This document shows, in pieces, positions 6,485 through 20,648 of a DNA stretch of 60,513 nucleotides. A model generated the notes under the pieces. The model was given only the letters and a program-made list of their open reading frames with translations. It did no database searches and had not been told where the DNA came from. Source of the DNA: Pseudofrankia coriaricola (GTDB lineage: Bacteria > Actinomycetota > Actinomycetes > Frankiales > Frankiaceae); the NCBI RefSeq assembly GCF_001854805.1, contig NZ_MBLO01000253.1:6176-66688 (forward strand), read 5' to 3'. Every line of letters starts with the position of its first letter. The first letter of the stretch is position 1. The translations under genes and the position numbers were made by a program.

Positions 6485-6547
6485 CCAGCGCGCCCGCACC
6501 CAAGCCCTCTGCCCCACCTGTTCGCATCGTCGAGTAAGCTCACCTGC

Positions 6548-6634
6548 GGTGGAGTCGCCTAGTGGCCGAGGGCGCACGCCTCGAAAGCGTGTGAGGGGGC
6601 AACCCCTCCGTGGGTTCAAATCCCACCTCCACCG
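6548..6634 (+). tRNA. tRNA-Ser (anticodon CGA), AICE integration target
   Basis: 87-nt class II tRNA. The acceptor stem pairs GGTGGAG (6548-6554) with CTCCACC (6627-6633), discriminator G 6634. Anticodon loop CTCGAAA gives CGA. There is a long variable arm and a T-arm GTGGG/TTCAAAT/CCCAC. No CCA is encoded. The 3' half forms attL, so the gene stays intact after integration. Confidence 0.97.
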
Positions 6635-6637
6635 CCC
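6579..6637 (+). other. attL, 59-bp attachment core (tRNA 3' part)
   Basis: Identical over 59 bp to 20590-20648, from the anticodon loop through the acceptor stem and three C residues beyond. Mismatches on both sides (G versus A to the left, C versus T to the right) define the limits. Confidence 0.95.
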
Positions 6638-6718
6638 CTGAGCAGCACAAAGGCCGACCCCGGACGACACGTCCGAGGCCGGCCAATATCATCTAGTCTC
6701 AATCTTGGTCTCATTAGG
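6638..6718. other. Element arm inside attL, with a possible integrase arm site overlapping the int 3' end
   Basis: Contains TCTCAATCTTGGTCTCATT (6697-6715), which matches TCTCAGTTCTGGTCTCGTT at 20480-20498 inside attR at 15 of 19 positions and in the same orientation. Tyrosine integrases usually bind such arm sites flanking the core, but here the sequence also encodes the integrase C-terminus (NETKIETR). Confidence 0.35.
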
Positions 6719-7936
6719 CGCCCAGAGCAGCGATCCAACCCGCTGGGCGATGTCTCGACGTATCGGGGCGGTCAGGTGTTGGTACCGGGCGGCCATGGTG
6801 GTGCTCGACCAACCCATGATCGACATGACCGCGCGGTCTGGCACTCCAAGCAGGAGCAGAACAGTGGCCGCGGTATGCCTGGCGTCGTGCAGCCTGGCGT
6901 CACGCAGACCGGCCGCCGCCAGCAGTCGCTTCCATTCGGAGTAGTCCGTGCGGGGATTCGTCGCGCCGCCGGTCGGGGTTGCAAACAGCCATCCCGCGTT
7001 GGTCCATATATCGGCGGCCATGTCTCGTTCGCGCGCCTGCTCTACCTGGTGGGCACGAAGCAGGGCGACCAGCTCGTCCGGCAACCCGATCGTCCGCTTT
7101 CCAGCCCTGGATTTCGTGTCGTCGGTCTCGGGGCGGAGCGCGATGCGCCGTGGGCAGTAGCCACCATGCTTCTTGCCACACGTCCCGCCGCAGCCGTGGG
7201 ACCATTTCGGCCTCAGCCTGTTGCGACGCACCCGTAGCGCACCCTGTTCTAGGTCGACGTCCGCCCATTTTAGCCCAAGGGTCTCGCCCTGGCGCAGACC
7301 GAGCGCAAGCGCGATCGCCCATCGTGCGCTGTTACGTCGCTTGGCAGCGGCATCCATAAGCCGTTTGATCGCCGCGACATCGTAGGGTTCGATCTCTTCT
7401 TCGACGACAGCCGGAGGCTTGGCGAGAGTCGCCGGGTTCTCCGTTATCCGCTTCCGGCGCTTCGCCTCATTGAGCGCGGTCTTAATGGTGCGGTGCGCCT
7501 GGTGGGCCGTAGCGGGCTTGCTGCCGTTTCGCATCATCTTCGCGTACAAGCGCTCCAGGTGTTCAGGCTCAAGCCGGTCGATCCGGTGTTTCCCCACTCC
7601 CGGGTTCAGGTGAACGCGGACCGCGACGCGGTAGCCCGCCAGCGTGTTGTCCTTCACCGTCCCGGGCACGATGTTCTCGATCCAGTGATTTAGCCACTGC
7701 TCGACGGTCCACGGCTTCCCCGGCTTCCTTACCGCGCCCTCGTCGCGGTCGCGCTCCAGCTTGCGGACTTTCGTGATGACCTCGGTTTCTGTTTTGGCGC
7801 TGACGTGGCGGCGGTCGGGTGTGCCGTTGTCGCGGACGCCCATTGTGACGCGGCCGTGCCAGCGGCCGTCGTTTCCTTCGTAGATGGAGGCGGCGCCGTT
7901 GGGGGCGCGGGTGCCTTCCTTTCGCTTTCGGGGCAT
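6689..7936 (-). CDS. int: AICE integrase, tyrosine recombinase
   Basis: 415 residues. Catalyses recombination between the element attP and tRNA-Ser(CGA) attB, and reversal with excisionase. An N-terminal arm-binding region (SIYEGNDGRWHGRVTMG) and a SAM-like core-binding domain (about 75-165) precede the catalytic domain. That domain has Arg in LGLRQGETLGL (about 212), Lys in TKSRAGKRTIG, HDARH (about 350), GW in IMGWSS, and nucleophile Tyr in AARYQHL (about 386). A Cys/His-rich insertion (CGGTCGKKHGGYC) before the Lys motif could bind zinc and is seen in related actinobacterial integrases. It lies 12 bp behind xis and its 3' end faces attL. Confidence 0.95.
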   Translation of the reverse strand: MPRKRKEGTRAPNGAASIYEGNDGRWHGRVTMGVRDNGTPDRRHVSAKTETEVITKVRKLERDRDEGAVRKPGKPWTVEQWLNHWIENIVPGTVKDNTLAGYRVAVRVHLNPGVGKHRIDRLEPEHLERLYAKMMRNGSKPATAHQAHRTIKTALNEAKRRKRITENPATLAKPPAVVEEEIEPYDVAAIKRLMDAAAKRRNSARWAIALALGLRQGETLGLKWADVDLEQGALRVRRNRLRPKWSHGCGGTCGKKHGGYCPRRIALRPETDDTKSRAGKRTIGLPDELVALLRAHQVEQARERDMAADIWTNAGWLFATPTGGATNPRTDYSEWKRLLAAAGLRDARLHDARHTAATVLLLLGVPDRAVMSIMGWSSTTMAARYQHLTAPIRRDIAQRVGSLLWAPNETKIETR

Positions 7937-7948
7937 GGGTCGTCCTTT

Positions 7949-8146
7949 TCAGGCGGCGGGGGTGAGGCTGGCGGTGTAGGTGGCGAGGTCGGCCGTGCGG
8001 ACGCGGCGTAGGCGTCCGATGCGGACGGAGGCGAGGGCGCCTTGGCGGATGAGGGCGAAGGTGGTGGTGCGGCCGATCCCGAGGGCGTCGGCGGCTTCTT
8101 CGACGGTGAGCAGGAGCTTGGGCGTGGGAGGGGGCGCGGTGTCCAT
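7949..8146 (-). CDS. xis: Excisionase, MerR-like helix-turn-helix protein
   Basis: 65 residues from ATG 8146, preceded by CCGGAG at suitable spacing. LLTVEEAADALGIGRTTTFALIRQGALASVRIGRLRRVRTADLATYTASL is the small winged-helix domain of AICE and phage excisionases (DNA-binding helix GIGRTTTFALI, followed by the basic wing). It bends the att arms and drives the integrase towards excision. It sits 12 bp before int, so the two are coexpressed. The large dyad array at 8189-8415 lies immediately upstream. Confidence 0.88.
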   Translation of the reverse strand: MDTAPPPTPKLLLTVEEAADALGIGRTTTFALIRQGALASVRIGRLRRVRTADLATYTASLTPAA

Positions 8147-8188
8147 GCGTGCTCCGGGGGGTGTAGACAGCCGGGGGCGCGGCTGGGC

Positions 8189-8415
8189 GTTGACACGTTG
8201 ACAATCGGGCTGTCGGGGCCTGTTCGTGCTGGTCGGGGCGGGTGTAGGTCCGTCATCGGGGGTTGGTGACGGTTGTTGACGGTGTTGACAGCGCGGGCGC
8301 CGTGGTGGGTGGGTGTCAACGCCGTCAACGGCTGTCATCGGGGGGTGTCGACGGGGGTTGTGGGGCCGTGACCTGCGGTAAAGGCGCCGTTGATGTTGGT
8401 TGTCAACGTGTCAAC
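8189..8415. promoter_or_regulatory. Nested dyad of paired GTTGAC/GTCAAC repeats between rep and xis; candidate origin or operator
   Basis: Four pairs of the hexamer are arranged symmetrically. Two rightward pairs are GTTGAC-AC-GTTGAC (8189-8202) and GTTGAC-GGT-GTTGAC (8275-8289); two inverted pairs are GTCAAC-GCC-GTCAAC (8315-8329) and GTCAAC-GT-GTCAAC (8402-8415). The outer 15-mers (8189-8203, 8401-8415) are perfect reverse complements. The inner 16-mers (8275-8290, 8314-8329) match at 15 of 16. Internal spacings mirror each other (8, 9, 9, 8). The right outer arm lies inside the rep 3' coding end. Confidence 0.7.
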
Positions 8416-9933
8416 GGCTGTGAGTAGGTCGGCGGCGCGGGGGTGGAGTTGGTGGCGTCCGTCGGGGCGGGGTCGGGTCCAGCCGTAGGTGGCGAGGACG
8501 TCGAGGGCGGCGGTGACGTCGGCGGCGGTGGGGAGCTGGCGGATGAGGCGGCGGTGGAGTTCGCGGCGGGTGAAGCCGGTCATCTGTTCGCGGGCGAGGA
8601 ATCGCAGGGTGCGGGCGGCGGCGGTGTGGGCGGGGTCGGTGGTGACGGTGTGTAGGGCGGTGCGGTAATGGGCGGCGAGGGCGTCGGCGAGATGGACGGC
8701 GCCGCGCATTTGTTCGGCGTCGATGGGGTGGCGCCAGCCGTCGCCGGGGTGGTGGGCCATGTGGAGCAGTCCGGCGATGCGTAGGGTGGTTCCGGGGAGT
8801 TTGTTGGCCCATTCGCGCATGGCGTGGTATTCGCCGCCGGGGCGGAGCTGGTTTTCGACGTGCTCGGCGTGGGCGGTGCGAATCGTGTCGGCGTCGGGGG
8901 TGAGGGTGATGACGGCGGGGTCTTCCCATTCGGCGAGGGTGGCGGCCAGGCCGTGAATGGTGCGGGCGTAGGTGTCGGTGATGTGGTCTGGGATGGGTGG
9001 GGAGTTGACGTCGCGCCAGCCCGCGAGCGAGGCGGGCAGGACGAACAGGAACCGGGCGACTAGGCCGCGGCCGGATAGGTCGGCGTCTGCGCCGAACTTC
9101 CGGAGCACCGATGGTTGGATCATGACGCCGACGGTGAGGGCGGGGCGGGGGATGAATTCGGCGTCGCGTCCTTTGCGGTCGACGCGCATGGGCCGTCCGG
9201 CGTGGCCTTTCAGGTAGGGGTCGAGGTTGGGGGCGGCGGAGAACCGGCCGGCGAGGGTGTCGAAGATGCCTCCCTCGTCGGAGATCAGGGCCATGCGTCC
9301 GCCGTTGTCGGCCATGAGCGAGGTGAGGGCTTCGGGGGTGGCGTCGTCGGCGAACAGCCGCGGCAGCGACGGCACGGTGACGGCCTCGGCGGCGAGGGCG
9401 GCGACGACGGCCTCGGCGGTGAGATCGGCGCGCCGGTCGTTGTCGGCTCGGGCGGCGACGTTCTTGGCCTGTTCCGCGGCGCGTCCGGCGATGTCGCGTA
9501 GGGCCGCGTTTTCCTTGGCGACCGGTTCGACGCGGGCGGCGAGGGTGTGTTCAGCGGCGAGGAGCGGGGCGGTCAGGGCGCCGTGGACGGGGCTTTTGCG
9601 TTCGCCGGGGTCGGCGACGACGGCGAGGAACAGGTTGACCGGTTCGCGCCAGCCCGGTCGGGGTTCCACTTCGAGTCGGCCGCCGGCGCAGGTGGATAGG
9701 ACGGCGAGGGCGACGGCGCCGGCCATGGCGGGGTCGGTCTGAGTGAACGTCGCGACGGCGCGGACGTAGTCGGCGAGCCAGCCGGGGTAGACGTCGACCG
9801 GGAAGCCGGGTGGTGGGGGCGCGGTGCCGAGGGGTACGGGGAGTTCCCACGGCGGGCCGTCGTCGGGGTCGGCCGCCGGGGCGGCGGGGTGCAGGGGGTG
9901 GGCGGTGGCGGCCTCGGGGTGCTGCCCGGTCAT
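8335..9933 (-). CDS. AICE replication protein, YfjI/DUF3987 helicase-like family
   Basis: 532 residues. Family resemblance: an N-terminal region PPGFPVDVYPGWLADYVRAVATFTQTDPAMAG, then an ATPase-like core with VVADPGERKSPVHGAL as a Walker A variant (about residues 108-123), ALISDEGGIFDTLAG as the B-like segment (about 215), and LSGRGLVARFLFVLP. The C-terminus (TGFTRRELHRRL, VLATYGWTRPRPDGR) is winged-helix-like. Such proteins act with a prim-pol in replication of mobile elements; helicase activity is inferred, not shown. The 3' end carries one arm of the 8189-8415 dyad. The prim-pol gene is 206 bp upstream on the same strand. Confidence 0.8.
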   Translation of the reverse strand: MTGQHPEAATAHPLHPAAPAADPDDGPPWELPVPLGTAPPPPGFPVDVYPGWLADYVRAVATFTQTDPAMAGAVALAVLSTCAGGRLEVEPRPGWREPVNLFLAVVADPGERKSPVHGALTAPLLAAEHTLAARVEPVAKENAALRDIAGRAAEQAKNVAARADNDRRADLTAEAVVAALAAEAVTVPSLPRLFADDATPEALTSLMADNGGRMALISDEGGIFDTLAGRFSAAPNLDPYLKGHAGRPMRVDRKGRDAEFIPRPALTVGVMIQPSVLRKFGADADLSGRGLVARFLFVLPASLAGWRDVNSPPIPDHITDTYARTIHGLAATLAEWEDPAVITLTPDADTIRTAHAEHVENQLRPGGEYHAMREWANKLPGTTLRIAGLLHMAHHPGDGWRHPIDAEQMRGAVHLADALAAHYRTALHTVTTDPAHTAAARTLRFLAREQMTGFTRRELHRRLIRQLPTAADVTAALDVLATYGWTRPRPDGRHQLHPRAADLLTAVDTLTTNINGAFTAGHGPTTPVDTPR

Positions 9934-10052
9934 GGCGGGTCTCCCTTCGGTGGCGCGGCGGGGGTTGTGCGGGCCGTGGACGGCCTGCCGTGGGTGAGGT
10001 GGTCTGCGGTGGTAGGTGATGGTTCGGATGTGTTGGTGACGGTTTGGCGTGG

Positions 10053-10133
10053 CCCTGAGACGGCCATAGGGGCCCGTTTTCGGATGGGCTGGTGTGGTGA
10101 GGTAGGGCCTGGCGGTCTCAGGCCGTCTCAGGG
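10053..10133. promoter_or_regulatory. Perfect 13-bp inverted repeat between prim-pol and rep
   Basis: CCCTGAGACGGCC (10053-10065) and GGCCGTCTCAGGG (10121-10133) are exact reverse complements with 55 bp between. A further direct half copy GGCGGTCTCA lies at 10111-10120. It could be an operator, a transcript hairpin or part of a replication origin for the rep gene behind it. Confidence 0.55.
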
Positions 10134-10139
10134 CGTCGG

Positions 10140-11516
10140 TCAGGGCTGGATCGCGACGGCTTCGTCGCGGAAGCCGCCTTCGATCGCGGCGCGGGTCTCG
10201 CGTGCGGTCTGGCCGGCGGCCAGTCCGGCGCGGGTGAGCGCGTCGAGTGCGGCGCGGCAGGTGAGGGCGTCGGCGGCGACCATCCGGGCGGCGCCGCGGG
10301 CGGCGCCGTAGAGGGTGGTGCGGCGCCGTCCTTGCGGGGCGCGGGCGACCGCGGCCAGATGCGCGGCCAGCAGCAGATCGGGGTGAGAGATGCCCCCGCC
10401 CCCTTGCCCGGCGGGCGAGGCTGGCGGGGCGGGGTGCGGTGCCGCCGGGGCTGGGGTCGGCGGGTCGGGCTGGGACAGGCAGACCTCGAGAAGGGGCGGG
10501 GGCATCTCCCCCACTGCCCGGCCACCCGCCCAGCGGTAGGGGCGCCGGGTGGCCGGGTGGATCGAGGGCGGGGCGACGACGTAGCCGCCGTCGGCTTTGA
10601 TGTCGACCCCCGGATGCCCCGGCAATGGCCGGGATGGGACGGGCTTTCCGGGGTGGGTGTAGTAGAGGTGCCAGCCCCCGCCGCCGGTGGCCACCGTTGC
10701 GGTGGGCGTCATGAGCGCGCGGTCGAGCTCGCCGCCGTGGGCGGGGTCGATGTCGACGATCACCAGCCCGGACGTCGCCCCGGTCCGGATGGCGACCAGC
10801 CCGTCAGGGATGGCGGCGAGCATCGCGGCGATGCGGGTGGGGTCGGTGGTGGCCGCGTAGAAGCCGTGGCAGGTCAGACAGTCGCAGACTTCGCGGTCGT
10901 GGTCGTGGTCGGGGGCGACGGCCTTGCAGGGCTGGCAGTTGGCCACGGGCCGCTTGGAACGGCCTAGGACGAACACCCGCCACCCGGCGGTGGCATAGCC
11001 GCGGGCGACGGCCAGCCGATCTGAGGGTGGCGCGGGGTGGGTTTCGGCGGTGGGTCGCCCGCCGTGGCGGGCGTCGTCATGGCTGCCGGCCGCGGTGACG
11101 GCCTCGGTCTCGCTCGCCGCGGCGATGGCGAGGTCCGGGCAGGCGGGGCAGGTGACGGTGAACCCGCCGGGCGGGCTGGCAGGGGTGGCCATAGGTCGAG
11201 TCCGTTCGTGGGATGCGGCCGGGGCGGCGGGGGCTGGTGGGGTTGGGCAGGTGAGGTGCAGTGGTGCGCCGTCGTGGCGGCGGAACGTGGCGATGCCGCA
11301 GGCGCGGCAGGGGGCGAGGCTGCCCGGGCCGGATGCGAACTCCGACCGCCCGGCCTCGGTCGGCGTCGGGGTGGCTGGTGGCCGGGCGGCGGGGCCGGCG
11401 GGTAGGAGTCGGGCGGCGGTGTAGTCGACGCGGCGGGGTCGGTGGGCCTCGCAGCGCCAGCCCGCGGCGTAGAGCCGGCCGGGAGCGCCGCAGACGGCAC
11501 AGGGCGGGGTGGTCAT
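10140..11516 (-). CDS. Bifunctional primase/polymerase (prim-pol) with N-terminal zinc ribbons
   Basis: 458 residues from ATG 11516, whose ATGA overlaps the stop of the preceding gene. The N-terminal 150 residues hold several CxxC clusters (CAVCG, CRACG, CPAC). The prim-pol domain starts near LAVARGYATAGWRVFVLG and contains the metal-binding strand LVIVDIDPAHGGELDR, the His motif GWHLYYTHPG and GVDIKADGGYVVAPPSIHP. The C-terminal helical part resembles primase C-terminal domains. A second cluster CQPC...CDCLTC lies within the catalytic part. It primes and possibly copies the excised element together with the DUF3987 protein. Confidence 0.88.
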   Translation of the reverse strand: MTTPPCAVCGAPGRLYAAGWRCEAHRPRRVDYTAARLLPAGPAARPPATPTPTEAGRSEFASGPGSLAPCRACGIATFRRHDGAPLHLTCPTPPAPAAPAASHERTRPMATPASPPGGFTVTCPACPDLAIAAASETEAVTAAGSHDDARHGGRPTAETHPAPPSDRLAVARGYATAGWRVFVLGRSKRPVANCQPCKAVAPDHDHDREVCDCLTCHGFYAATTDPTRIAAMLAAIPDGLVAIRTGATSGLVIVDIDPAHGGELDRALMTPTATVATGGGGWHLYYTHPGKPVPSRPLPGHPGVDIKADGGYVVAPPSIHPATRRPYRWAGGRAVGEMPPPLLEVCLSQPDPPTPAPAAPHPAPPASPAGQGGGGISHPDLLLAAHLAAVARAPQGRRRTTLYGAARGAARMVAADALTCRAALDALTRAGLAAGQTARETRAAIEGGFRDEAVAIQP

Positions 11517-11875
11517 GCGGCCAGCCCCGTCCGGTCGTGGCAGTCGAGGCAGACGCCCAGCCGGGCGGGGATGACGTAGCCGGCATCCGCGCCGCAGCCG
11601 GGGCAGAGGCGGCGGCGGGCGCGGGCGGCGGCGAGTTGGGCGAGCCGGCCCGGGGCGGGCGGGGTGCGTAGGACGGTGTCGGCGAGGTGGTAGAGCGCGG
11701 CGGTCCGGACCCCGCTGGCCGCCCGCCGGGAGCGCCACATCAGTTGGGCGACCGGGTCGCCGGTCGGGCGTAGGCCCATCGCGGCGAGCTGGCCGCGGGT
11801 GGCGAGATGGTCGGGGGTCATCCGCCACGGCCAGGTCGGGATGCCGTAGCGGGTGCCAGCGGGGTCCAGGAACAT
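11513..11875 (-). CDS. AICE zinc-binding protein of the RRQRL-motif type
   Basis: 120 residues from ATG 11875. DPAGTRYGIPTWPWRMTPDHLATRGQLAAMGLRP followed by LCPGCGADAGYVIPARLGVCLDCHD matches the small protein widespread in actinomycete AICEs. The name-giving RRQRL segment is changed to TRGQL here. The C-terminal four-Cys ribbon (CPGC...CLDC) should bind zinc. Function unknown. It begins 10 bp after the preceding 54-residue gene and overlaps prim-pol by 4 bp. No strong ribosome site precedes it, so translation coupling is likely. Confidence 0.78.
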   Translation of the reverse strand: MFLDPAGTRYGIPTWPWRMTPDHLATRGQLAAMGLRPTGDPVAQLMWRSRRAASGVRTAALYHLADTVLRTPPAPGRLAQLAAARARRRLCPGCGADAGYVIPARLGVCLDCHDRTGLAA

Positions 11876-11885
11876 CTGCGTCGGC

Positions 11886-12050
11886 CTACCGGCGGGCGCG
11901 CTGTGGCGCGGGCTGGGCGGAGGTGTCGCGGGTGGGCTGGGCGGGCCGGCAGAAGTAGCGCTGATGGGTGGCCAACAGCTCGTCTGCTTCGGCCTGGGTG
12001 GTGACGTTGTCCGAGACTGCGCCGCAGTCGCCGCACCGGTAGCGGGCCAT
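11886..12050 (-). CDS. Small zinc-ribbon protein (54 aa)
   Basis: Reads ATG 12050 to TAG 11886. It begins MARYRCGDCGAVSDN with a CxxC knuckle, continues with an acidic stretch and HQRYFC (a possible second ligand pair), and ends in a Pro/Ala/Arg tail. Small proteins of this form occur in AICE transfer-replication operons between membrane and prim-pol genes. GGGAGTACCC just upstream can serve as ribosome site. Function unknown; DNA or RNA binding is inferred from the ribbon. Confidence 0.65.
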   Translation of the reverse strand: MARYRCGDCGAVSDNVTTQAEADELLATHQRYFCRPAQPTRDTSAQPAPQRARR

Positions 12051-12091
12051 GATGGGTACTCCCTTGCTTGTTCTTGTCGGGCGGGTGAGGG

Positions 12092-12135
12092 CCGGGGCGC
12101 GGCGACGTTCTTGGCGGAGTGGCGCCGCGCCCCGG
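12092..12135 (-). other. Intra-operon hairpin, copy 1 (13-bp stem)
   Basis: CCGGGGCGCGGCG (12092-12104) and CGCCGCGCCCCGG (12123-12135) form a perfect stem with an 18-nt loop containing TTCTTGGCGG. An almost identical structure lies at 15041-15088 in the same operon. No T-tract follows, so RNA processing, attenuation or protein binding is as likely as termination. Confidence 0.7.
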
Positions 12136-12141
12136 GCGGAT

Positions 12142-12378
12142 CTAGCGGCGGAGGTGGCCGCCGACGACGGCGATCCCGGCCAGGGTGAGTACGGCGAGGG
12201 CGGCGGTCAGGGCGATGGCGGCGGGCTGGTGGTGCAGCGGGTAGCCGCCGGCAACGGTGAGGGCGAGCCGGGCCGCGCGGGTGGTGGCGGTGCGGGTGGT
12301 GGCGGCGAGGCGGGCCAGGGCGCGGCGCAGGGTCGGCCAGAGCGCGGCGGCGGCCAGGGCGAACAGGACGGCGGTCAT
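12142..12378 (-). CDS. Small two-helix membrane protein of the transfer operon
   Basis: 78 residues from 12378. A first hydrophobic segment (TAVLFALAAAALW), a basic middle (LRRALARLAATTRTATTRAARLALTVAGG) and a second segment (AAIALTAALAVLTLAGIAVVG) give a helical hairpin. Position and form recall the small Spd (spread) proteins of Streptomyces plasmids, which help intramycelial spread. That assignment rests on context rather than sequence motifs. It lies 15 bp after the preceding gene. Confidence 0.6.
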   Translation of the reverse strand: MTAVLFALAAAALWPTLRRALARLAATTRTATTRAARLALTVAGGYPLHHQPAAIALTAALAVLTLAGIAVVGGHLRR

Positions 12379-12393
12379 AGCAGGGCTCCCGGG

Positions 12394-12630
12394 CTAGCGG
12401 AGGCGGCGCAGGGCGTTGGTGGCGCGACGGCCGGCGCGCAGGGTCAGGCCGGTGTGGTCGCAGTGGCGGCACGGACGGGGCCGTCCGGTGAACCGGCCGG
12501 TGGTGCGGGTGGTGCCGGCGCAGTGGCGGCAGGGGCGGAACGGCCGGATCCAGCACAGAACCCCGTAACCGACAGTGACGATCAGCAGGGGCAGGGCGAG
12601 CGGGACGAGCAAGCTCGGGTCGGGGGTCAC
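12394..12630 (-). CDS. Small membrane-anchored zinc-ribbon protein
   Basis: 78 residues from GTG 12630. One membrane segment (LLVPLALPLLIVTVGYGVLCWI) is followed by a cytoplasmic tail with two CxxC pairs, PCRHCAGTTRTTGRFTGRP and PCRHCDHTG. These resemble a single DnaJ-type zinc hairpin and end in a basic tail. It is a typical small AICE operon gene; the role is unknown. Membrane anchoring next to TraB suggests work at the transfer pore, which is inference. Confidence 0.6.
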   Translation of the reverse strand: MTPDPSLLVPLALPLLIVTVGYGVLCWIRPFRPCRHCAGTTRTTGRFTGRPRPCRHCDHTGLTLRAGRRATNALRRLR

Positions 12631-12670
12631 GGAGGGCCTCCAGGGCTGTTTTTGGGCGCGTTTGGCCGGG

Positions 12671-12758
12671 GGGTGCTAGCCACTAGTGGGCTGGCGGGGG
12701 TTGGTGGGGGGTGCTAGCGGGGGTGCTAGGTCTAGCGGGGGTGGCCGCTAGACCTAGC
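12671..12758. promoter_or_regulatory. GGGTGCTAG direct repeats and 14-bp stem-loop behind traB; candidate transfer locus or terminator
   Basis: GGGTGCTAG occurs near 12671, 12709 and 12721. GCTAGGTCTAGCGG (12725-12738) and CCGCTAGACCTAGC (12745-12758) form a perfect 14-bp stem with a 6-nt loop, 16 bp past the traB stop. CTAG, normally scarce in high-GC genomes, occurs six times within about 85 bp. Confidence 0.65.
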
Positions 12759-12774
12759 GACCCGCCGGGGCGGG

Positions 12775-15006
12775 TTAGCCGCTCCGCTTCCGCTCACGCT
12801 CAGTGATCGCGGTGAGGATGTCGGCGTGGGTGACGCCGCGGCGGTTGCCGCCCTTGCCGGTGGCCGGGTCGGTGCCCCAGATCTGCCCGACGGTGATCCC
12901 GTGGGGGGTGAGGGCGGCGGTGAGCTGGGCTGGCTTCCACCCGGTGTAGGCGTCGGGACGGTGCTCGGCGAGCAGGCTGCACAGGGTGTCGTTCCAGACC
13001 TTGTCCTCGCCCAGCGGCCAGACCGCGGCCACGTCGGCGAGCACATCGAGAACCTCGGTAGTGCGGGTCCGCTCCGCCGGGGTCGGCAGGGTGCCAGCCT
13101 CGGCGCGGAGCTCGACCGCACGGGCGACGACGCGGACCAGGTCCGGTCCGGCGACGTAGAACGACCGGTCGGCGCCGGGCTTGCCGAACCCTGCGAGGAT
13201 GCCCCAGCCGGCTTCGGTGACCGGCTCGAACACGGTGGCCCGGTAGCCGTTCTTGTACGCCGACGTCCCCAGGATCATGTCGTTCGCGGTCTGGTCCGCC
13301 ACCGACAGGCAGAACCGCGAGTTGACGTTGCGGGTGATCCCCGTCGGCAGGCTGTCCTTGTCGGGGATCTGGGTACCCAGCAGGATGATCACTCCGAGGG
13401 CGCGGCCCAGCTTGATCGCCCGCTCCAGGGTCTCCCCTGCCGCCTTGCCCCAGCGGGACACGAACAGTTCCTGTGCTTCGTCGATGAAGACCACGAGCGG
13501 GTGCAGCCCGGAGCCCTTGAGGGAGGCGAGCTGTGGAGTGACTTTGCCTTCGGGGGCCATGCCGCGGGCGCGGTAGTAGTCGATCCGCTCGGAGCGGCGC
13601 TGGCACTCGGCGTAGACCCAGTCGACCATCCCGGCGGCGCGCTCGATCGTGGCCTCGTCGAAGCCGTTGCCGTACTCGGCAAGGACCGGCTCGAAGTCGG
13701 CGAAGTCACCGACGCCCTTGAGTTCGTAGCCGCGGATCTCGGCCCGGGGGTCGAGGGCGGCGGCGGCCACGAGTAGCCGCAGGGCGAACGTCTTGCCGGA
13801 GCCGGGCTGGCCGCCGAACAGCCAGTTGCGGAACATCAGCGACACGCAGACCGTGGTCATCCGTGGGGTGGTCGCGAACGCGAACGGCTCGAAGACGTCG
13901 ACCTTGCCGGACCGGATCAGCGGCCAGGCAGGGGGGCGCATCTTTGACGCAGGCTCATGGCCCACCCACAGCGCCAGCCGCCCGGTGTGCCCCGGCGACG
14001 GCTCAGGCCAGACCTGGTCGAGCGGTAGGCGCAGGCCGGAAGCGAGCCGGCCGCGGCGGGCGACGACCTCGGCGGCTTCCACGCCGTAGGGCAGGTCGAC
14101 GATGGCCAGGTGGCCGGGGCCGTCGCGGTGGATCTCGACCGGGAACGAGATCGCCCCCGGGTCCTTCGCCACCGCGGAGTTGATCCCGGCCAGGCCGATC
14201 GAGGTCAGGGCGCGGCGGACGAGTTCCGCCGTCAGCTTGCGATAGGCCGGGCCGTTCGTGACACGGTCGAGAATCGGCCGGTCCGCCGGGCGGCCCAACC
14301 GCGCCAGACCGACCACCGTGCCAACCAGCACGGCGAGGCGGACCAGCGACGGCCACGGGCCGAACCAGACCACCAGGTAGGCCACCAGCACCAACACGGT
14401 GCTGATGCCGAGGATCGGCCAGCGGGTCGTGGACTGACGCTGGCGGGCGCGGTCGAGCTGCAGCCATGCCGCGGTGTCGTTGCGCCGGGCCGCGTCCTGC
14501 CGCAACGCCCAGTTGCCCTCCTCCGCCGACGCCCACCGCAGCAGCCGCCCGACGAGGCGGAACCCGCCCACCATCGCCCACCACACCGTCAGCAGCGCGT
14601 ACTTCGGCGCGCGCAGGGCGTGGAAGCCAGCGGCGTAGCCGACGTTGCGGGAGGTCTGGCGGGCGGCGGTGCGGACCGCGACGCGGGAACGCAGCCAGGC
14701 CGGGACAATCGGCGCCCGCACCGGACGCACCCGCCCCGCCGGCACCGCCGTCTCGTCCGACGGGTCGACCGGCACGCCCAGCGGCGCCGGCTCGACCGCG
14801 ACCGACTCGCGGTCCTCGCCATCGTCGCCGGGGTCGGTGGTGGGCGGGGCGGGGACCGGGCGCCGGGCGCGTGCCTCTGCCAGGTCCACGACCTCACCCC
14901 CCGGCCCGGCGGTCGGGTCGGCTGGGTCGGTCGGGCTGGTGGGGTCGGTCCACCCGTCGTCGGGGTCGGGGCTGGCGCCCGGCCCGAACGGGTCTGTAGT
15001 CGTCAT
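12775..15006 (-). CDS. traB: FtsK/SpoIIIE-type DNA translocase TraB
   Basis: 743 residues from ATG 15006. It pumps double-stranded plasmid DNA between hyphae, the sole motor of AICE transfer. An acidic, Pro-rich N-terminal tail (1-100) is followed by two hydrophobic stretches (AAGFHALRAPKYALLTVWWAMVGGF and WPILGISTVLVLVAYLVVWF). The RecA-like domain has Walker A GGQPGSGKT (about 400) and Walker B LVVFIDEAQELF (about 505). The C-terminus (LTPHGITVGQIWG, RRGVTHADILTAI) fits the winged-helix gamma-like domain that reads repeats in the transfer locus. The repeat/stem-loop cluster just past the stop is a candidate target. Length and order match actinobacterial TraB. Confidence 0.93.
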   Translation of the reverse strand: MTTTDPFGPGASPDPDDGWTDPTSPTDPADPTAGPGGEVVDLAEARARRPVPAPPTTDPGDDGEDRESVAVEPAPLGVPVDPSDETAVPAGRVRPVRAPIVPAWLRSRVAVRTAARQTSRNVGYAAGFHALRAPKYALLTVWWAMVGGFRLVGRLLRWASAEEGNWALRQDAARRNDTAAWLQLDRARQRQSTTRWPILGISTVLVLVAYLVVWFGPWPSLVRLAVLVGTVVGLARLGRPADRPILDRVTNGPAYRKLTAELVRRALTSIGLAGINSAVAKDPGAISFPVEIHRDGPGHLAIVDLPYGVEAAEVVARRGRLASGLRLPLDQVWPEPSPGHTGRLALWVGHEPASKMRPPAWPLIRSGKVDVFEPFAFATTPRMTTVCVSLMFRNWLFGGQPGSGKTFALRLLVAAAALDPRAEIRGYELKGVGDFADFEPVLAEYGNGFDEATIERAAGMVDWVYAECQRRSERIDYYRARGMAPEGKVTPQLASLKGSGLHPLVVFIDEAQELFVSRWGKAAGETLERAIKLGRALGVIILLGTQIPDKDSLPTGITRNVNSRFCLSVADQTANDMILGTSAYKNGYRATVFEPVTEAGWGILAGFGKPGADRSFYVAGPDLVRVVARAVELRAEAGTLPTPAERTRTTEVLDVLADVAAVWPLGEDKVWNDTLCSLLAEHRPDAYTGWKPAQLTAALTPHGITVGQIWGTDPATGKGGNRRGVTHADILTAITERERKRSG

Positions 15007-15040
15007 GATGGTGGTGGTCCTTCCATGCGGAGGGGCAGGA

Positions 15041-15088
15041 CCGGGGCGCGGCGGGTGAGTCTTGGCGGGCTGAACCGCCGCGCCCCGG
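15041..15088 (-). other. Intra-operon hairpin, copy 2 (14-bp stem) between DUF2637 gene and traB
   Basis: CCGGGGCGCGGCGG (15041-15054) and CCGCCGCGCCCCGG (15075-15088) form a perfect stem with a 20-nt loop containing GTCTTGGCGG. It matches copy 1 at 12092-12135 in stem and loop core. It fills most of the 105-bp gap before the traB start. Confidence 0.7.
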
Positions 15089-15111
15089 GGAACACGGGCT
15101 GGTCGGGCTGG

Positions 15112-15936
15112 TTAGGCGGCGACCGGCTCACGGGCCGCCGGCACCGCCGGGACGTCGCTCACGGTCGGCGTGGGTGCCGGGGTGCGCAGGCCGGCGGTGT
15201 CGAGTAGCCGGGTGGCGCGCTGGTGGCCGATCCCGAGCGCGGCGGCGGCGCGGCGGACCGGCACCGTGCCGTCGGGGGCGCGGGGCAGGTCGCGAAGCGC
15301 GGCGATCAGGTCGGCGTCGGTCCGCTGAGGGGCGCGCTTGCGGTCGGGGTTGCGGGGTGTGCTCGTCTGCGTCCGGCCGGTCCGGGCCGGCACACGCTTC
15401 GCGGTGCGCTCCGTGGTTGGCGTGGGTGTCGGGTCGGGGGTGGATGTGAAGGCGGCGGCGGTGACGGTGTCGAGCGCCAGGTCGAGCACAGCACCCACCG
15501 CGCCCGCGGGCGACGGTGCGGGCTGGGTGTTGTCGAGTTCGGCGCGGATGCGGCCACCGGTCTCCAACAGGGCGATCGAGGCGACGACCACCAGGCCATC
15601 GACCGACAGCGGCAGCAGGTGCGCGGAGATCGCGGTCTCGCCGTAGCGGGCGGCGACGCTGACCATGTGGAAGTAGGAGACGTACGCCGCGACGCCGGCC
15701 ACCGCCGCCGTCGCCGCCCGGCCCACGAACGCCAGCACGAGACGGTGAACCGGAACGCGGGAGATCAGCTCCACCGTGATCAGCAGGGCGACCGGCGACC
15801 ACGCCGACATCACCCGCCCCACGATGCTCGGCTGGGCGTGCAGCACGTTCGCCGCGATCGACGCGGACACCCCCAACGTCAGGGCGACCCGCACCCCCCA
15901 CTGGAGACGGCGCAGACGGTGTAGACGGTCGTTCAC
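15112..15936 (-). CDS. DUF2637 membrane protein (SpdB-like transfer accessory)
   Basis: 274 residues from GTG 15936, overlapping the previous stop as GTGA. Four hydrophobic segments make up the DUF2637 domain: VALTLGVSASIAANVL, SAWSPVALLITVELISRV, ATAAVAGVAAYVSYFHMVSVA and HLLPLSVDGLVVVASIALLE. This family is found beside TraB in nearly all AICEs and is thought to help spread. A Pro/Thr-rich linker leads to a C-terminal helix-turn-helix-like part (VPVRRAAAALGIGHQRATRLLDTAGL), suggesting DNA contact on the cytoplasmic side. Confidence 0.85.
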   Translation of the reverse strand: MNDRLHRLRRLQWGVRVALTLGVSASIAANVLHAQPSIVGRVMSAWSPVALLITVELISRVPVHRLVLAFVGRAATAAVAGVAAYVSYFHMVSVAARYGETAISAHLLPLSVDGLVVVASIALLETGGRIRAELDNTQPAPSPAGAVGAVLDLALDTVTAAAFTSTPDPTPTPTTERTAKRVPARTGRTQTSTPRNPDRKRAPQRTDADLIAALRDLPRAPDGTVPVRRAAAALGIGHQRATRLLDTAGLRTPAPTPTVSDVPAVPAAREPVAA

Positions 15937-16316
15937 TGGTCCTCCTCCAGGGTGTCGAGCGTGGTGAGTTCGGCGCGGAGCTTGGTGGCCTGGTCCGCCC
16001 ACCAACCGGGCACGGTCGTGCTGGTGGTGGCGTACCGCTCGGCCTCGGCAAGCCGGGCGGTCAGCACGGTGCGCCGGTCGGGGATCTCGTCCACCACGGC
16101 GGCCACCGCCAAGGCGCGGCGCAGGCTGACCGTTTCCGCGTCCTGCGAGTACGCACCGGTCAGGGTCGACTCGATGGAGGCGGCCATCAGGCCGAGTGCG
16201 AACGCCCGCCGGCTGGCCGGGGCGTCGTAGTGGGCGAGCATCGCCCGCGCACCGTCCAACTCGGCGGCGGTCAGCTCGACCGCGGGCGGCCACGTGGAAA
16301 CGGTCCGGGTGGTCAC
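15933..16316 (-). CDS. AICE protein of unknown function (127 aa)
   Basis: Starts at GTG 16316, overlapping the previous gene by GTGA, and itself overlaps the DUF2637 gene. The sequence (ELTAAELDGARAMLAHYDAPASRRAFALGLMAASIESTL, then ALAVAAVVDEIPDRRTVLTARLAEAERYA) looks all-helical and soluble. No motif is recognised. The strict 4-bp overlaps on both sides imply fixed stoichiometry with its neighbours in the transfer operon. Confidence 0.65.
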   Translation of the reverse strand: MTTRTVSTWPPAVELTAAELDGARAMLAHYDAPASRRAFALGLMAASIESTLTGAYSQDAETVSLRRALAVAAVVDEIPDRRTVLTARLAEAERYATTSTTVPGWWADQATKLRAELTTLDTLEEDQ

Positions 16317-16927
16317 GCCGCACCCCGTAGCGGGTGACGACGGGGACGGAACCGGCCCGGCCCGGCAGGCTCGAAGTCGGTGGCGACGCTCGCCAGCCGG
16401 CGGTGGGCCGTGTCGAGACGGAGGGTGGCGAGGGGGCCGCCGTACCCGGCGGCGAGGGAGGCTTCGGCGTCGACCACGGCAAGTTCGGCGTCGATCAGCG
16501 GCCATTCGGCGTCGATCTCCGCCAGGTCGCCGGGCGTCGGCTCCCGGTCGGCCAGGTCCGCGGACGACTCGTCCGACGCGAGGCTGGCCAGCATGTCGAG
16601 GTCGGTGAACACCGCCCACAACACGAGACCCACCTCGGCGCGGGTGAAGACCGCTTCGACCTTGACCGCCCTGCCGCTGTCGCCGAATGGGCGCGCCGAC
16701 AGTGGCACTTCCAGACGGGCGGCGTAGCGCAGCAGCGCGGCAAGGCGGCGAGCCTCATCGGGGTCGTACACATGCAGGTCGACCGCGGTCTTCCGCGCCG
16801 GCACCGACACATGCACCCCCGGCGCGCCGCCGCCCAGCAGGTCGACGACTTCGGCAGCCACCCGCAACGCGGCGGCCTGCCGGCCGGCCCGGACATCCGG
16901 GCCGGCCACCACGACAGAGGCGGTCAC
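16313..16927 (-). CDS. AICE protein of unknown function (204 aa)
   Basis: Starts at GTG 16927. It has a mixed alpha/beta N-terminal half (VVDLLGGGAPGVHVSVPARKTAVDLHVYDPDEARRLAALLRYAARL) and a long acidic helical C-terminal part (LAEIDAEWPLIDAELAVVDAEASLAAGYGGP). No recognised domain and no membrane segment. Second gene of the main transfer operon, overlapping the genes on both sides by 4 bp. The C-terminus is Arg/Pro-rich. Confidence 0.65.
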   Translation of the reverse strand: MTASVVVAGPDVRAGRQAAALRVAAEVVDLLGGGAPGVHVSVPARKTAVDLHVYDPDEARRLAALLRYAARLEVPLSARPFGDSGRAVKVEAVFTRAEVGLVLWAVFTDLDMLASLASDESSADLADREPTPGDLAEIDAEWPLIDAELAVVDAEASLAAGYGGPLATLRLDTAHRRLASVATDFEPAGPGRFRPRRHPLRGAA

Positions 16928-17046
16928 TTGCTACCGCCCGACTGAGAACCCCGCTCCACCAGCTCCCGCGCGAGCTTCTCGACGGCCTCAGCCGTCGCGT
17001 CCGCGAGGTTGTCGGCCGACGGGGCCGTGTTCAGGGCATGCTTCAT
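16924..17046 (-). CDS. Short leader peptide-like protein (40 aa), first gene of the transfer operon
   Basis: ATG 17046 with an excellent ribosome site AGGAGGT about ten bases upstream. Sequence MKHALNTAPSADNLADATAEAVEKLARELVERG then a Ser/Gly tail: one amphipathic helix. It overlaps the next gene by 4 bp. It could be a small DNA-binding or toxin-neutralising peptide, or a translational leader for the operon; nothing in the sequence decides. Confidence 0.6.
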   Translation of the reverse strand: MKHALNTAPSADNLADATAEAVEKLARELVERGSQSGGSK

Positions 17047-17121
17047 ACGGGTCTGACCTCCTACACAGGTCGGATCAAGACCCTGGCCGGGTGCGGGAAC
17101 ACTCGGCCGGGGTCGGACCTT

Positions 17122-17157
17122 GGCCCTCGGCTGGTGCGGGAACACCAGCCGAGGGCC
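17122..17157. terminator. Strong hairpin (15-bp perfect stem) between the two AICE operons
   Basis: GGCCCTCGGCTGGTG (17122-17136) pairs perfectly with CACCAGCCGAGGGCC (17143-17157) around a 6-nt loop. GTTTTCG follows on the plus strand. It lies between the regulator stop (17262) and the transfer operon start (17046). It may insulate the two leftward units, but the T-run orientation fits rightward transcription better. Confidence 0.6.
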
Positions 17158-17212
17158 GTTTTCGTTGCGGTTCAGCGACTTAGCCGGTGACCCGCACCCG
17201 AAGTATGGGGTA

Positions 17213-17258
17213 GCACCCTTAGTGCCGTCTAGACCTTCCTAGGATTTTTTGTGCGACC
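17213..17258 (-). promoter_or_regulatory. Operator/promoter-like box, copy upstream of the transfer operon
   Basis: Minus-strand order: GGTCGCACAAAAAAT, CCTAGGAAGG, TCTAGACGG, CTAAGGGTGC. The same blocks occur at 18861-18896 before the regulatory operon. This copy has about 10 extra bp (including palindromic CCTAGG) between the A-tract and the TCTAGA block. It lies 167 bp before the first gene of the transfer operon. Confidence 0.65.
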
Positions 17259-17261
17259 TAG

Positions 17262-18476
17262 TCACACGGGTACGCCACAGCGGTCGGCTAGGCCGCGAAG
17301 CTCCAGGTCGTCGCGGCGGTCCGGACCCTGCAGCAGATCCCGCACGAGCACTCGCACGCGTGGATGGTCGCGAATCTGCTCCGGCGCGATCCGCTCCGCC
17401 TCCAGCAGTGCGGTCACTGCCTCGCCGCGGGCGCGACGCTGCGCATTGGCTCGCGCGACGTCGATCAGGAAGCGCGCCCGCCGTTCCGGCGACAGCCCAT
17501 CGAGGTCAATGTCGGCTGCCCGTTCCAGGGCCTCGCCCGCGTCACCGAGCTCGACCGCGACCGCGACCGCGTGGATCGCAACGTTCGCCGGTCCGAACTC
17601 GGTGTTGAAATCGTTGCGACCGGCGCCGACCGTTGCCGCGAGCCTCTCGGCCTCGCCGATCGCCTCTCGGGTGCCGGACCGGTCGCCGGATCGCGCGGCC
17701 ACGACTGCCCGGACCAGGCAGAGCGCGCCAAGCACCGATGTGGCCGGTTTCCCGAGGTCGGCCGACCGCGGGCGAAGCGCGTCCGCGCCGACGGTCGCCG
17801 CGTGGCGGGCCTGGTCGAGCCGACCGGCGCTCAGCAACGTCTGCGCCAGCCGGTACTGACCAGCCGCCACCAGCGCCGGATCGTCCGCGCGCTCGGCCGC
17901 GAACAGTGCGCGGTCGGCTGTCAACCAGCCCGCTTCGAGGTCATCCACCTTCGCGAACACCGCGCCGACCGCCTGATAGGCACTGGCCAACGCCGCAGCG
18001 ATCCCGGCACGCTCGCCGGACGGCGCCGACCGCACCGCCTGCTCCAGATCGATGATCAGCGCGGCCAGTGTCGGCACGACTTCCGAGTACCTAGACGCGT
18101 GGACTAGGTCCCACACACCGTCGACCCGCGCCCGCGCGTCCGAGCCGGTCGCGCTCCTGCCTGGTGGTCCCGGAGCAATCAGCGCGGCCAGCGCCGGGTG
18201 GCCAGTGACCGCCAAGCGCAGCGTCGACCACCAGGGCGCCGGATCGGCAACCGCCTCAACGGGCGCGCCCGGCGAGAGTTCAGCCACCGGAACGTTCAGG
18301 GTGTCGGCGAGCAGCTCCAACACCGACATCCGGTCGACCTTGCGAGCGTTCCGCTCGACCTGCGAAACCCAGCTCTCCGACCGGCCGATCAGCCGCCCAA
18401 GCTCGACCTGAGACAGCCCACGCCGCTTCCGGTGGTACGCGACGCGTTCGCCCAGCGTCGGGGACGCCTCGGTCAC
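17262..18476 (-). CDS. XRE-family regulator with C-terminal TPR-like repeats
   Basis: 404 residues from GTG 18476, overlapping the preceding stop as GTGA. The N-terminal helix-turn-helix (LGERVAYHRKRRGLSQVELGRLIGRSESWVSQVERNARKVDRMSVLELLADTL, residues 8-60) is Cro/CI-like. The rest is an array of helical pairs of TPR type with Ala-rich repeats (LASAYQAVGAVFAKVDDLEAGWLTADRALFAAERA and similar). Actinobacterial regulators of this build often sense small peptides or ligands. As the only dedicated regulator in the AICE, it probably controls the twin boxes at 17213 and 18861, so also its own operon; this is inferred. Confidence 0.85.
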   Translation of the reverse strand: MTEASPTLGERVAYHRKRRGLSQVELGRLIGRSESWVSQVERNARKVDRMSVLELLADTLNVPVAELSPGAPVEAVADPAPWWSTLRLAVTGHPALAALIAPGPPGRSATGSDARARVDGVWDLVHASRYSEVVPTLAALIIDLEQAVRSAPSGERAGIAAALASAYQAVGAVFAKVDDLEAGWLTADRALFAAERADDPALVAAGQYRLAQTLLSAGRLDQARHAATVGADALRPRSADLGKPATSVLGALCLVRAVVAARSGDRSGTREAIGEAERLAATVGAGRNDFNTEFGPANVAIHAVAVAVELGDAGEALERAADIDLDGLSPERRARFLIDVARANAQRRARGEAVTALLEAERIAPEQIRDHPRVRVLVRDLLQGPDRRDDLELRGLADRCGVPV

Positions 18477-18790
18477 TTCGCGCCCCCGGTCACGCCCTTG
18501 TCGTCGATCAGCGAAAGGAACTCGACCCGCGGCGGCGCAGCTAGGAACTCCTCCCGCGCCGCGAGGAACCGCATCACGTGCTCCTGGCGCTCATGCTCGT
18601 CGAACGCCTCGCGGCTCCGGTACAGCTCGTAGAAGATCCGTGCGTCTGGATCTTCCTCAACGGCATGCGTCGCGTAGACCTGCGTCCCAGGCTCCAACGC
18701 CACAATCTGTGGCAACGTCTCTGCGACCAGGCGGTCGAACCCCTCCGCCGCCCCGGGTCGCAAGGCGAACCGAACCACCAACCCGAACAT
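18473..18790 (-). CDS. Antibiotic biosynthesis monooxygenase (ABM)-fold protein
   Basis: 105 residues from ATG 18790, preceded by GGAGAAGAGG. MFGLVVRFALRPGAAEGFDRLVAETLPQIVALEPGTQVYATHAVEEDPDARIFYELYRSREAFDEHERQEHVMRFLA is a clear ABM dimeric alpha/beta-barrel half. Family members oxidise quinols, degrade haem or sense small molecules. First gene of the regulatory operon, with a 4-bp overlap to the XRE regulator. The tight coupling suggests the fold makes or removes the regulator's ligand, which is speculation. Start chosen by the ribosome site and family length. Confidence 0.85.
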   Translation of the reverse strand: MFGLVVRFALRPGAAEGFDRLVAETLPQIVALEPGTQVYATHAVEEDPDARIFYELYRSREAFDEHERQEHVMRFLAAREEFLAAPPRVEFLSLIDDKGVTGGAK

Positions 18791-18860
18791 CGAGCCTCTT
18801 CTCCTTGGGTACGACGCCAGGCAGCTCAGCGTCGACGACCCCACCATCCTGACACAGCCC

Positions 18861-18896
18861 GCACCCTTAGGACCATCTAGCATTTTTTGTGCGACC
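18861..18896 (-). promoter_or_regulatory. Operator/promoter-like box, copy upstream of the regulatory operon
   Basis: Minus-strand order: GGTCGCACAAAAAATG, CTAGATGG, CCTAAGGGTGC. Matches the 17213-17258 box block by block but is 10 bp shorter. It lies about 70 bp before the ABM start, at promoter distance. Confidence 0.65.
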
Positions 18897-19058
18897 ACAG
18901 CTCTCGTAACGCCCAAGGATGGCCGCCTTATTTCCTCCCCAGCGAGAGTCCACGCACTGGATGACGATCAACCTTCAGCCGCGACCACTCCGAGCGGTGC
19001 CGAAGATTCATCGCGGTAGGATCGCCGCCAAGTTCCAACTGCTAGACGGGGGCTAGTG

Positions 19059-20261: not shown

Positions 20262-20589
20262 CCAGCCGGCGTCGCCAGCCAATGGGCAACCAGGCTCGTC
20301 GGACGTCCGGCGTACGGACGTCCGCAGCCACTTCTAGGCGGTGTGGCCGGGGGCCAAGATGCGAGCGTTTGAGACCCGGGCCGTAGGGCACGGCGCCGGA
20401 CGGTAGCGCCCCGCAGGAAAGGCGCCGGCCTGCGGCTCTCTCGCTCCCGTCCTAGATCGAGCAGGGCGCGTCCGGCGGTCTCAGTTCTGGTCTCGTTCAC
20501 CAACGTTCGGTACCGGTCACGATCGGTCGAAGACCGATGAGACGCCTCATCTAGACCACGGCGTATCTTCCTGGACGGCAGTGAGCAGA
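20262..20589. other. attR arm region with palindromes and an int-end-like repeat
   Basis: No gene supported. Contains CGGACGTCCG twice (20300-20309, 20315-20324), TCTCAGTTCTGGTCTCGTT (20480-20498, like the attL arm), and two small dyads: ATCGGTC/GACCGAT (20522-20538) and GATGAG/CTCATC (20536-20551). These could be integrase and excisionase sites of the attP arm. Confidence 0.45.
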
Positions 20590-20648
20590 CCTCGAAAGCG
20601 TGTGAGGGGGCAACCCCTCCGTGGGTTCAAATCCCACCTCCACCGCCC
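20590..20648 (+). other. attR, 59-bp duplicate of the tRNA-Ser 3' part
   Basis: Exact copy of 6579-6637 without the 5' half of the tRNA, so it is not a functional tRNA gene. Marks the right end of the integrated element. Confidence 0.95.

Follow-up and report, generated by a model that had tools for sequence, protein, structure and literature searches.

The closest described counterpart of the locus considered here is the Streptomyces plasmid pWTY27, which encodes a primase-polymerase (Prim-Pol), RepB, together with a 522-aa RepA, and carries a 300-bp region of 8-bp and 7-bp repeats on both strands with a long inverted repeat (PMC3583192; this and the other publications are cited from excerpts). 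This region, to which RepA binds, is essential for replication in S. lividans; the plasmid replicates bidirectionally (PMC3583192). Ghinet et al. consider the plasmid probably an excised integrative and conjugative element (PMC3218068). In Staphylococcus aureus pathogenicity islands (SaPIs), the C-terminal domain of the helicase reads repeats just downstream of its own gene, apparently as two hexamers, and in staphylococcal cassette chromosome (SCC) elements the C-terminal domain of Cch2 binds the putative origin (PMC7581432). For actinomycete integrative and conjugative elements (AICEs), a 2011 survey placed the prim-pol replication proteins among the less well characterised (PMC3218068). Here we consider a stretch of 60,513 nucleotides from Pseudofrankia coriaricola (contig NZ_MBLO01000253.1, positions 6,176 to 66,688; the window), in which an AICE of ~14.07 kb (~6579-20648), flanked by a 59-bp direct repeat, carries an array of repeats (8188-8416, ~230 bases) between rep and xis. 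We propose that this array is, in all likelihood, the replication origin of the AICE, used after excision and bound by Rep, because the array stays with rep, Rep has a modelled winged helix, and the initiators of SaPIs, SCC elements and pWTY27 bind repeats beside their genes.

The array consists of two mirrored half-modules of ~104 bp. Eight GTTGAC hexamers start at 8189, 8197, 8275 and 8284 on the plus strand and at 8315, 8324, 8402 and 8410 on the minus strand, with pair periods of 8, 9, 9 and 8 across the array, and the outer and inner dyads share their centre at 8302. The positions stated in a preliminary description of the window are confirmed. Its outer perfect repeat of 15 bp is indeed present, though longer, being perfect over 17 bp, and its inner repeat of 15 of 16 positions is the core of arms that extend to 24 nt at 83% (8267-8290 / 8314-8337). 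The rep frame extends into the right half of the array, and one outer arm lies, as described before, within the coding sequence. The outer and inner arms are separated by spacers whose mirror likeness is only 42%; each spacer holds two single sites of the TGAC/GTCA type, and these, together with a box, GCAGGTCA, and its weaker mirror box, are parts beyond the earlier account. The same array is present in Pseudofrankia asymbiotica (L001/L012; Rep 83%), in G022 (L013; Rep 74-75%), in Catenuloplanes japonicus (L002; Rep 65%) and in genome G002. The parts in the window are as follows.

8188-8204, plus strand: left outer repeat pair CGTTGACACGTTGACAA, period 8; conserved in L001, L013, L002 (one mismatch) and G002
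8228-8235, plus strand: degenerate box GCTGGTCG, two mismatches against GCAGGTCA; from the half-module alignment, mirror of the right-half box
8252-8257, minus strand: single inverted site GTCATC in the left spacer; from the half-module alignment
8267-8270, plus strand: single TGAC site in the left spacer; from the half-module alignment
8275-8290, plus strand: left inner repeat pair, period 9
8291-8313: centre, unconserved and G+C-rich; its length varies in relatives
8314-8329, minus strand: right inner repeat pair, period 9
8334-8337, minus strand: single TGAC site in the right spacer; overlaps the rep stop codon (8335-8337)
8347-8352, plus strand: single inverted site GTCGAC in the right spacer; GTCAAC in L001, L013 and L002
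8369-8376, minus strand: box GCAGGTCA / TGACCTGC; octamer common to most array loci, across classes
8400-8416, minus strand: right outer repeat pair, inside rep codons ~506-512, where the low-confidence tail of the Rep model (508-532) begins

Considering the low model confidence of residues 508-532, the coding part of the right half-module probably specifies, for the most part, a flexible tail of Rep.

Eleven half-modules, from five arrays (window, L001, L013, L002 and G002) and one lone half, were aligned. From the outside inward, the order is outer pair, GCAGGTCA-type box ~25 bp in, GTCAAC-type inverted site, TGAC site and inner pair, and the half-modules face one another across the unconserved centre. 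The spacing from outer to inner pair is 86-88 bp in both halves of all five arrays despite differing spacers, and the inner pairs lie, start to start, 40 bp apart in the window, 42 in L001, 39 in L013, 40 in G002 and 29 in L002. A scan of genome contigs with the window Rep gave two loci. The element of P. asymbiotica closely resembles that of the window only in Rep and the array: within 20 kb of its 45.8-kb contig there is no match to the integrase, xis or traB of the window below E 0.3, the prim-pol match is remote, and an integrase and a prim-pol of other lineages are present.

Eight of the 25 GTTGAC copies in the window fall within 227 bp, compared with a maximum of three per 227 bp in 100 dinucleotide shuffles, and beyond the array the window contains no other GTTGAC pair 6-40 bp apart. 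The 17-bp outer pair is the longest inverted repeat in the 60.5-kb window (arm starts 30-400 bp apart); the second longest, of 16 bp, stands at 10387/10493 inside the prim-pol open frame. GTTGAC-N1-4-GTTGAC occurs eight times in the 11.2-Mb genome, four of them in the array. The 15-mer GTTGACACGTTGACA occurs nine times in four of 35 family genomes, as one outer pair each in G000, G005, G022 and G002 plus the lone half in G002; 74 viral contigs contain it, with a single match in 73 of them and two matches, in the same orientation, in L049.

The dyad at rep recurs in related elements of other actinobacteria, including Streptomyces, mostly in other repeat words. We examined the region 3' of rep in 51 rep loci, the window and 50 others, leaving aside L001 (a copy of L012), L011 (a copy of the window) and L014 (a copy of L117); 392 genomes gave 68 Rep matches, of which 31 (L024 included), mostly the best-scoring, were examined. 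An array was assigned, by eye and with class labels of our own, in 40 of the 51, in about six word classes: GTTGACA (4 loci), GGTGACA (2), TGACAGAA (23), CCACAGAAA (5), CCGCAGAAA (4) and CCGCACAAA (2). In a label-free check, the longest inverted repeat 3' of rep, with arms up to 28 nt among the loci, beats all 100 shuffles in 36 of the 40 array loci and in none of the 11 others; on the upstream side of rep, the same test is positive in 2 of 50 flanks. The stop of L013 was mis-extended through N bases, so that its per-locus figures are off; its array was read separately for the half-module alignment, and the corrected stop was used in the shuffle-based test. The TGACAGAA class has mirrored 4+4 modules (9 bp within the outer pair, 21 bp within the inner pair and 65 bp from outer to inner start; at most three mismatches per 9-mer and a tolerance of 1 bp) in all 23 loci and in none of 1150 mononucleotide shuffles, and its A+T climbs to 0.64 near an inner arm. 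Genus g24 is taken for Streptomyces, given the 82% match of L119 to a named Streptomyces replicon. NZ_CP107792.1, a circular Streptomyces replicon of 18,451 bp, carries prim-pol, rep (DUF3987), a TGACAGAA-type array, a helix-turn-helix (HTH) gene and an integrase, in that order.

Some loci depart from this plan. In L117 (G020), the GGTGACA array at ~9560-10150 combines a single left half with about three consecutive right halves. At the 3' end of rep, L146 and L147 carry tandem repeats, with no dyad seen there. In L118 (G003), a 19-nt inverted repeat, TCCCCACAATCCCCAGAAG, at 10139/10182 just upstream of a distant rep (35%) beats 100 shuffles, and the array of this locus may sit on the other side of rep. 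Near the rep of the Tsukamurella plasmid L162 (43-44%), inverted repeats reach only 11-14 nt; TGACCTGC occurs there at 7531 (the rep stop) and again ~1.1 kb further, at 8610, and 12-nt inverted repeats lie between these two sites and on either side of them. This plasmid may carry a diverged array.

The distance between the two halves varies stepwise. In the TGACAGAA class the central gaps are 44, 55-58, 65-68 and 88-90 bp, and the matching distances in other classes differ in steps of 10-12 bp (29 versus 39-42 in the GTTGACA class). For ten distinct gaps, taken from related and hence non-independent loci, the phase measure R is 0.52, 0.70 and 0.77 at periods of 10, 10.5 and 11. Steps of about one helical turn suggest that the two halves need to lie on the same face of the helix, and such spacing makes looping or synapsis of the two halves plausible.

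When every 8-mer 3' of rep is counted with no prior choice, GCAGGTCA/TGACCTGC is the most shared, occurring in 36 of the 40 array loci and all six classes, and in none of the 11 array-less loci. In the four classes other than GTTGACA and GGTGACA, two boxes face each other in 30 of 34 loci (at most one mismatch); the rep-side box of the GTTGACA class has the opposite orientation. The box may serve a component that these replicons share, for example Prim-Pol or a host factor. A 26-nt dyad with one GCAGGTCA box beside it also lies 3' of rep in pSM17B (L158 2967-3084), a replicon with prim-pol and a D5-type helicase, whose best BLASTN match in print, according to the excerpt, is pWTY27. The pWTY27 word GTGGGAAC was not found in pSM17B, and this replicon does not settle the family of the pWTY27 RepA.

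Which gene does the array follow? The AICE reads leftward as traB-like gene, prim-pol, rep, array, xis-like gene and tyrosine integrase, with the following features.

6579-6637, plus strand: attachment-site copy, the 3' part of tRNA-Ser(cga) (tRNA 6547-6637)
6689-7936, minus strand: tyrosine integrase
7949-8146, minus strand: xis-like HTH_17 gene
8335-9933, minus strand: rep, putative helicase of the DUF3987 family (PF13148), 532 codons
10140-11828, minus strand: prim-pol open frame, PF09250 at residues 276-444; the actual start is probably more internal
12775-15006, minus strand: FtsK/TraB-like transfer gene, FtsK domain E 1.3e-4, 21.9 bits (below the curated cut-off of 24, with relatives in other elements)
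17262-18476: XRE-type HTH gene
20590-20648, plus strand: second copy of the 59-bp attachment repeat

Changes of repeat class were counted on a Rep tree made from the helicase domain, C-terminus excluded, and on a xis tree of 37 rows, against 200 shuffles; xis families were drawn from four seed proteins of our choosing. On the Rep tree, repeat class needs 7 changes (shuffles 13-17). Relatives of the integrase, xis and TraB of the window also occur without an array: its xis family is present in array-less L026 and L028, L156 (the element of L026) has an integrase and a xis that are 61% and 56% like those of the window, and TraB relatives (34-43%) are found in array-less L149, L150, L151 and L156. 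Since repeat class tracks the Rep tree and these other genes occur without it, the array belongs mainly with the rep module.

These data also bear on the best-surviving alternative, which we nevertheless regard as improbable: the array could be an operator of the xis-int promoter, where a regulator, Xis or Rep would bind the paired sites, loop the DNA and switch the excision genes. In the window, xis has the array directly upstream, a xis-like open reading frame starts within 700 bp 3' of rep in 37 of the 40 array loci, and TTGACA-like words resemble -35 boxes. Moreover, repeat class departs slightly from random on the xis tree (11 changes; shuffles 11-14, with 1 of 200 as low). However, xis family is close to random on the Rep tree (16 changes; shuffles 14-22, with 20 of 200 as low), and the best-matching xis seed is scrambled relative to repeat class: L017 and L018 share one xis family and have different repeats, and L018 and L019 show the reverse. 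The array-less relatives of the xis and integrase argue in the same direction. The preliminary description had left the choice between an origin recognised by an element protein and a looped Xis/Rep operator; conservation, gene linkage and the precedent in print point to the former, whereas an operator read by Xis fits poorly with the scrambled xis families and with the array-less elements that carry related xis and integrase genes. A secondary regulatory role of Rep binding is possible.

A transfer locus (clt), with repeats read by the TraB/FtsK translocase, seems very improbable. Streptomyces clt loci do have short repeats, and the clt of pWTY27 has TGACACC repeats (PMC3583192), but the array is 4.3 kb from the traB-like gene, TraB relatives reside in array-less elements, and P. 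asymbiotica has the array and no traB match in the 20 kb searched. We give equally little credence to a foldback stem-loop origin or single-stranded DNA hairpin, such as those put forward for pRN1 and for IR2 of pWTY27. The outer arms are fully complementary and the inner arms largely so, and pRN1 has a stem-loop origin immediately 3' of its rep gene (PMC4234260); against this, the poor mirror likeness of the spacers means that there is no continuous stem, and tandem repeats in each arm with stepwise spacing suit a bound protein better. Least credible of all is a small inserted element, resembling a miniature inverted-repeat transposable element, with terminal inverted repeats, for although the DNA likeness of the rep-less G002 array to the window stops at the outer arms (window 8186-8419), the constant place 3' of rep across diverse elements, the different words and the conserved inner structure speak against it.

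For the proposed origin bound by Rep, the protein itself offers a candidate reader. The AlphaFold model of Rep, built with 31 sequences (mean predicted local distance difference test score 84, pTM 0.77), has a putative C-terminal winged helix at ~434-496 with the order helix-helix-helix-strand-strand. Among PDB structures, the best Foldseek matches are MCM helicases (E 1.8e-3, probability 1.00, TM about 0.3), and MarR/SarA-type winged-helix proteins are also among the matches. Rep is thus predicted to be an AAA+ helicase, nearest to MCM but weakly so. No RepSA-type initiator was found, as Pfam gives rep DUF3987 only and NCBIfam gives no family. According to a prediction by Kazlauskas et al., DUF3987 is a family of helicases found in mobile elements; the same authors proposed that related proteins may use their winged helices to recognise origins (PMC5862659).

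We infer from these observations that Rep binds the array, that the array acts as an origin and that two opposed helicases assemble on it. The modelled C-terminal winged helix of Rep would read the 6-9-bp repeats, and each mirrored half-module, with its outer pair, box, single sites and inner pair, could provide one assembly platform. Because the halves are opposed with a preferred helical phasing, a single origin might accommodate two Rep assemblies of opposite polarity; forks would then start in both directions, and the Prim-Pol of the element would prime them.

Several observations weigh against the origin reading. The G+C of the window array is 0.53-0.75 in 40-bp steps, and no AT-rich stretch was seen in it when one was looked for. 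No recognised array lies 3' of rep in 11 of the 51 rep loci, and in five f17 elements there is no comparable dyad within 19-20 kb, L149 having a lone 21-nt inverted repeat 2.6 kb past rep. The box is also found upstream of rep in 8 of the 40 array loci. Rep and the array are adjacent, so that shared ancestry alone accounts for part of their linkage, and the fit of repeat class to the xis tree is, as noted, not random. The MCM likeness of Rep is weak, with no PDB fold match at E ≤0.001 and no match in a PDB sequence search with the Rep alignment; the MarR/SarA-type matches presumably cover the C-terminal domain. Finally, the one-contig genome of G002 contains one complete and one half array besides other dyads, yet it has no DUF3987 match at E 0.001, and its Prim-Pol match is 410 kb from the array. 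The locus is

L114 10687-12640, equal to G002:C1 ~3357687-3359640: GTTGACA array and half copy, with four further words forming dyads within 2 kb

The four other words are ACTCCGGAAACTCCGG, GGCCGGAAAGGCCGG, CCCCGCAAC and GAAACTCTCCAAG, three of which share a double CTACGCGC centre; the CTACGCGC core is in no viral contig searched and, among the 35 family genomes, in G002 alone. This locus is possibly a remnant, or a satellite with several origins.

A wider proposal, which we put forward only tentatively and think rather doubtful, would unite these features in a widespread family of actinobacterial origins. In such an origin, each of the two mirrored, helix-phased halves would self-load a single MCM-like DUF3987 ring, the rings standing head to head and no loader being required. 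The repeat word would be swapped for compatibility, the fixed GCAGGTCA box would be kept for a shared primase, and G002 would be a satellite with an origin battery for several helpers.

The array gives a concrete, testable candidate origin for the prim-pol AICEs. Its mirrored, phased plan, together with the modelled MCM-like initiator, may provide a small bacterial system for loader-free bidirectional helicase loading. From the repeat-word classes one can predict which elements are able to coexist in a cell, and the same classes could serve to mark similar origins in genome data.

Phage P4 has a primase-helicase with a winged helix that binds origin repeats, and its primase is of the TOPRIM type; its likeness to the array and Rep is one of description. 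The claim of the preliminary description that no AICE origin with this plan had been described was nearly right: our literature search turned up no paper whose listing describes such a plan for AICEs, but pWTY27, with its prim-pol, repA and RepA-bound 300-bp repeat region, comes near (PMC3583192). Judging from the published clone coordinates, the repeat region of pWTY27 would lie 3' of repA, so that the order prim-pol, rep, repeat region matches the window and L157. However, its repeat word is GTGGGAAC, the excerpts describe no mirrored half-module rule or shared box, and RepA was compared by description only (PMC3583192). As in the SaPI and SCC type, the rep helicase gene is directly followed by multiple short repeats. 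In SaPIs and SCCmec an element primase acts with a self-loading helicase; these systems are staphylococcal, with helicases of the DUF927 or D5 type, and a mirrored two-half plan is not described for them in the excerpts (PMC7581432). pRN1 is likewise a prim-pol/helicase replicon, with its origin just 3' of rep and an initiator with a C-terminal winged helix, but this origin is a stem-loop without iterons, and the helicase, of superfamily 3, is fused to the primase (PMC4234260). Budding-yeast origins, where two opposed sites for the origin recognition complex (ORC) load two MCM rings, resemble the proposed arrangement by analogy only, as ORC is a separate loader (PMC12440816). An iteron origin of a self-loading helicase is a known kind; the origin proposed here differs in its mirrored, phased plan of two halves and in repeat words that change.
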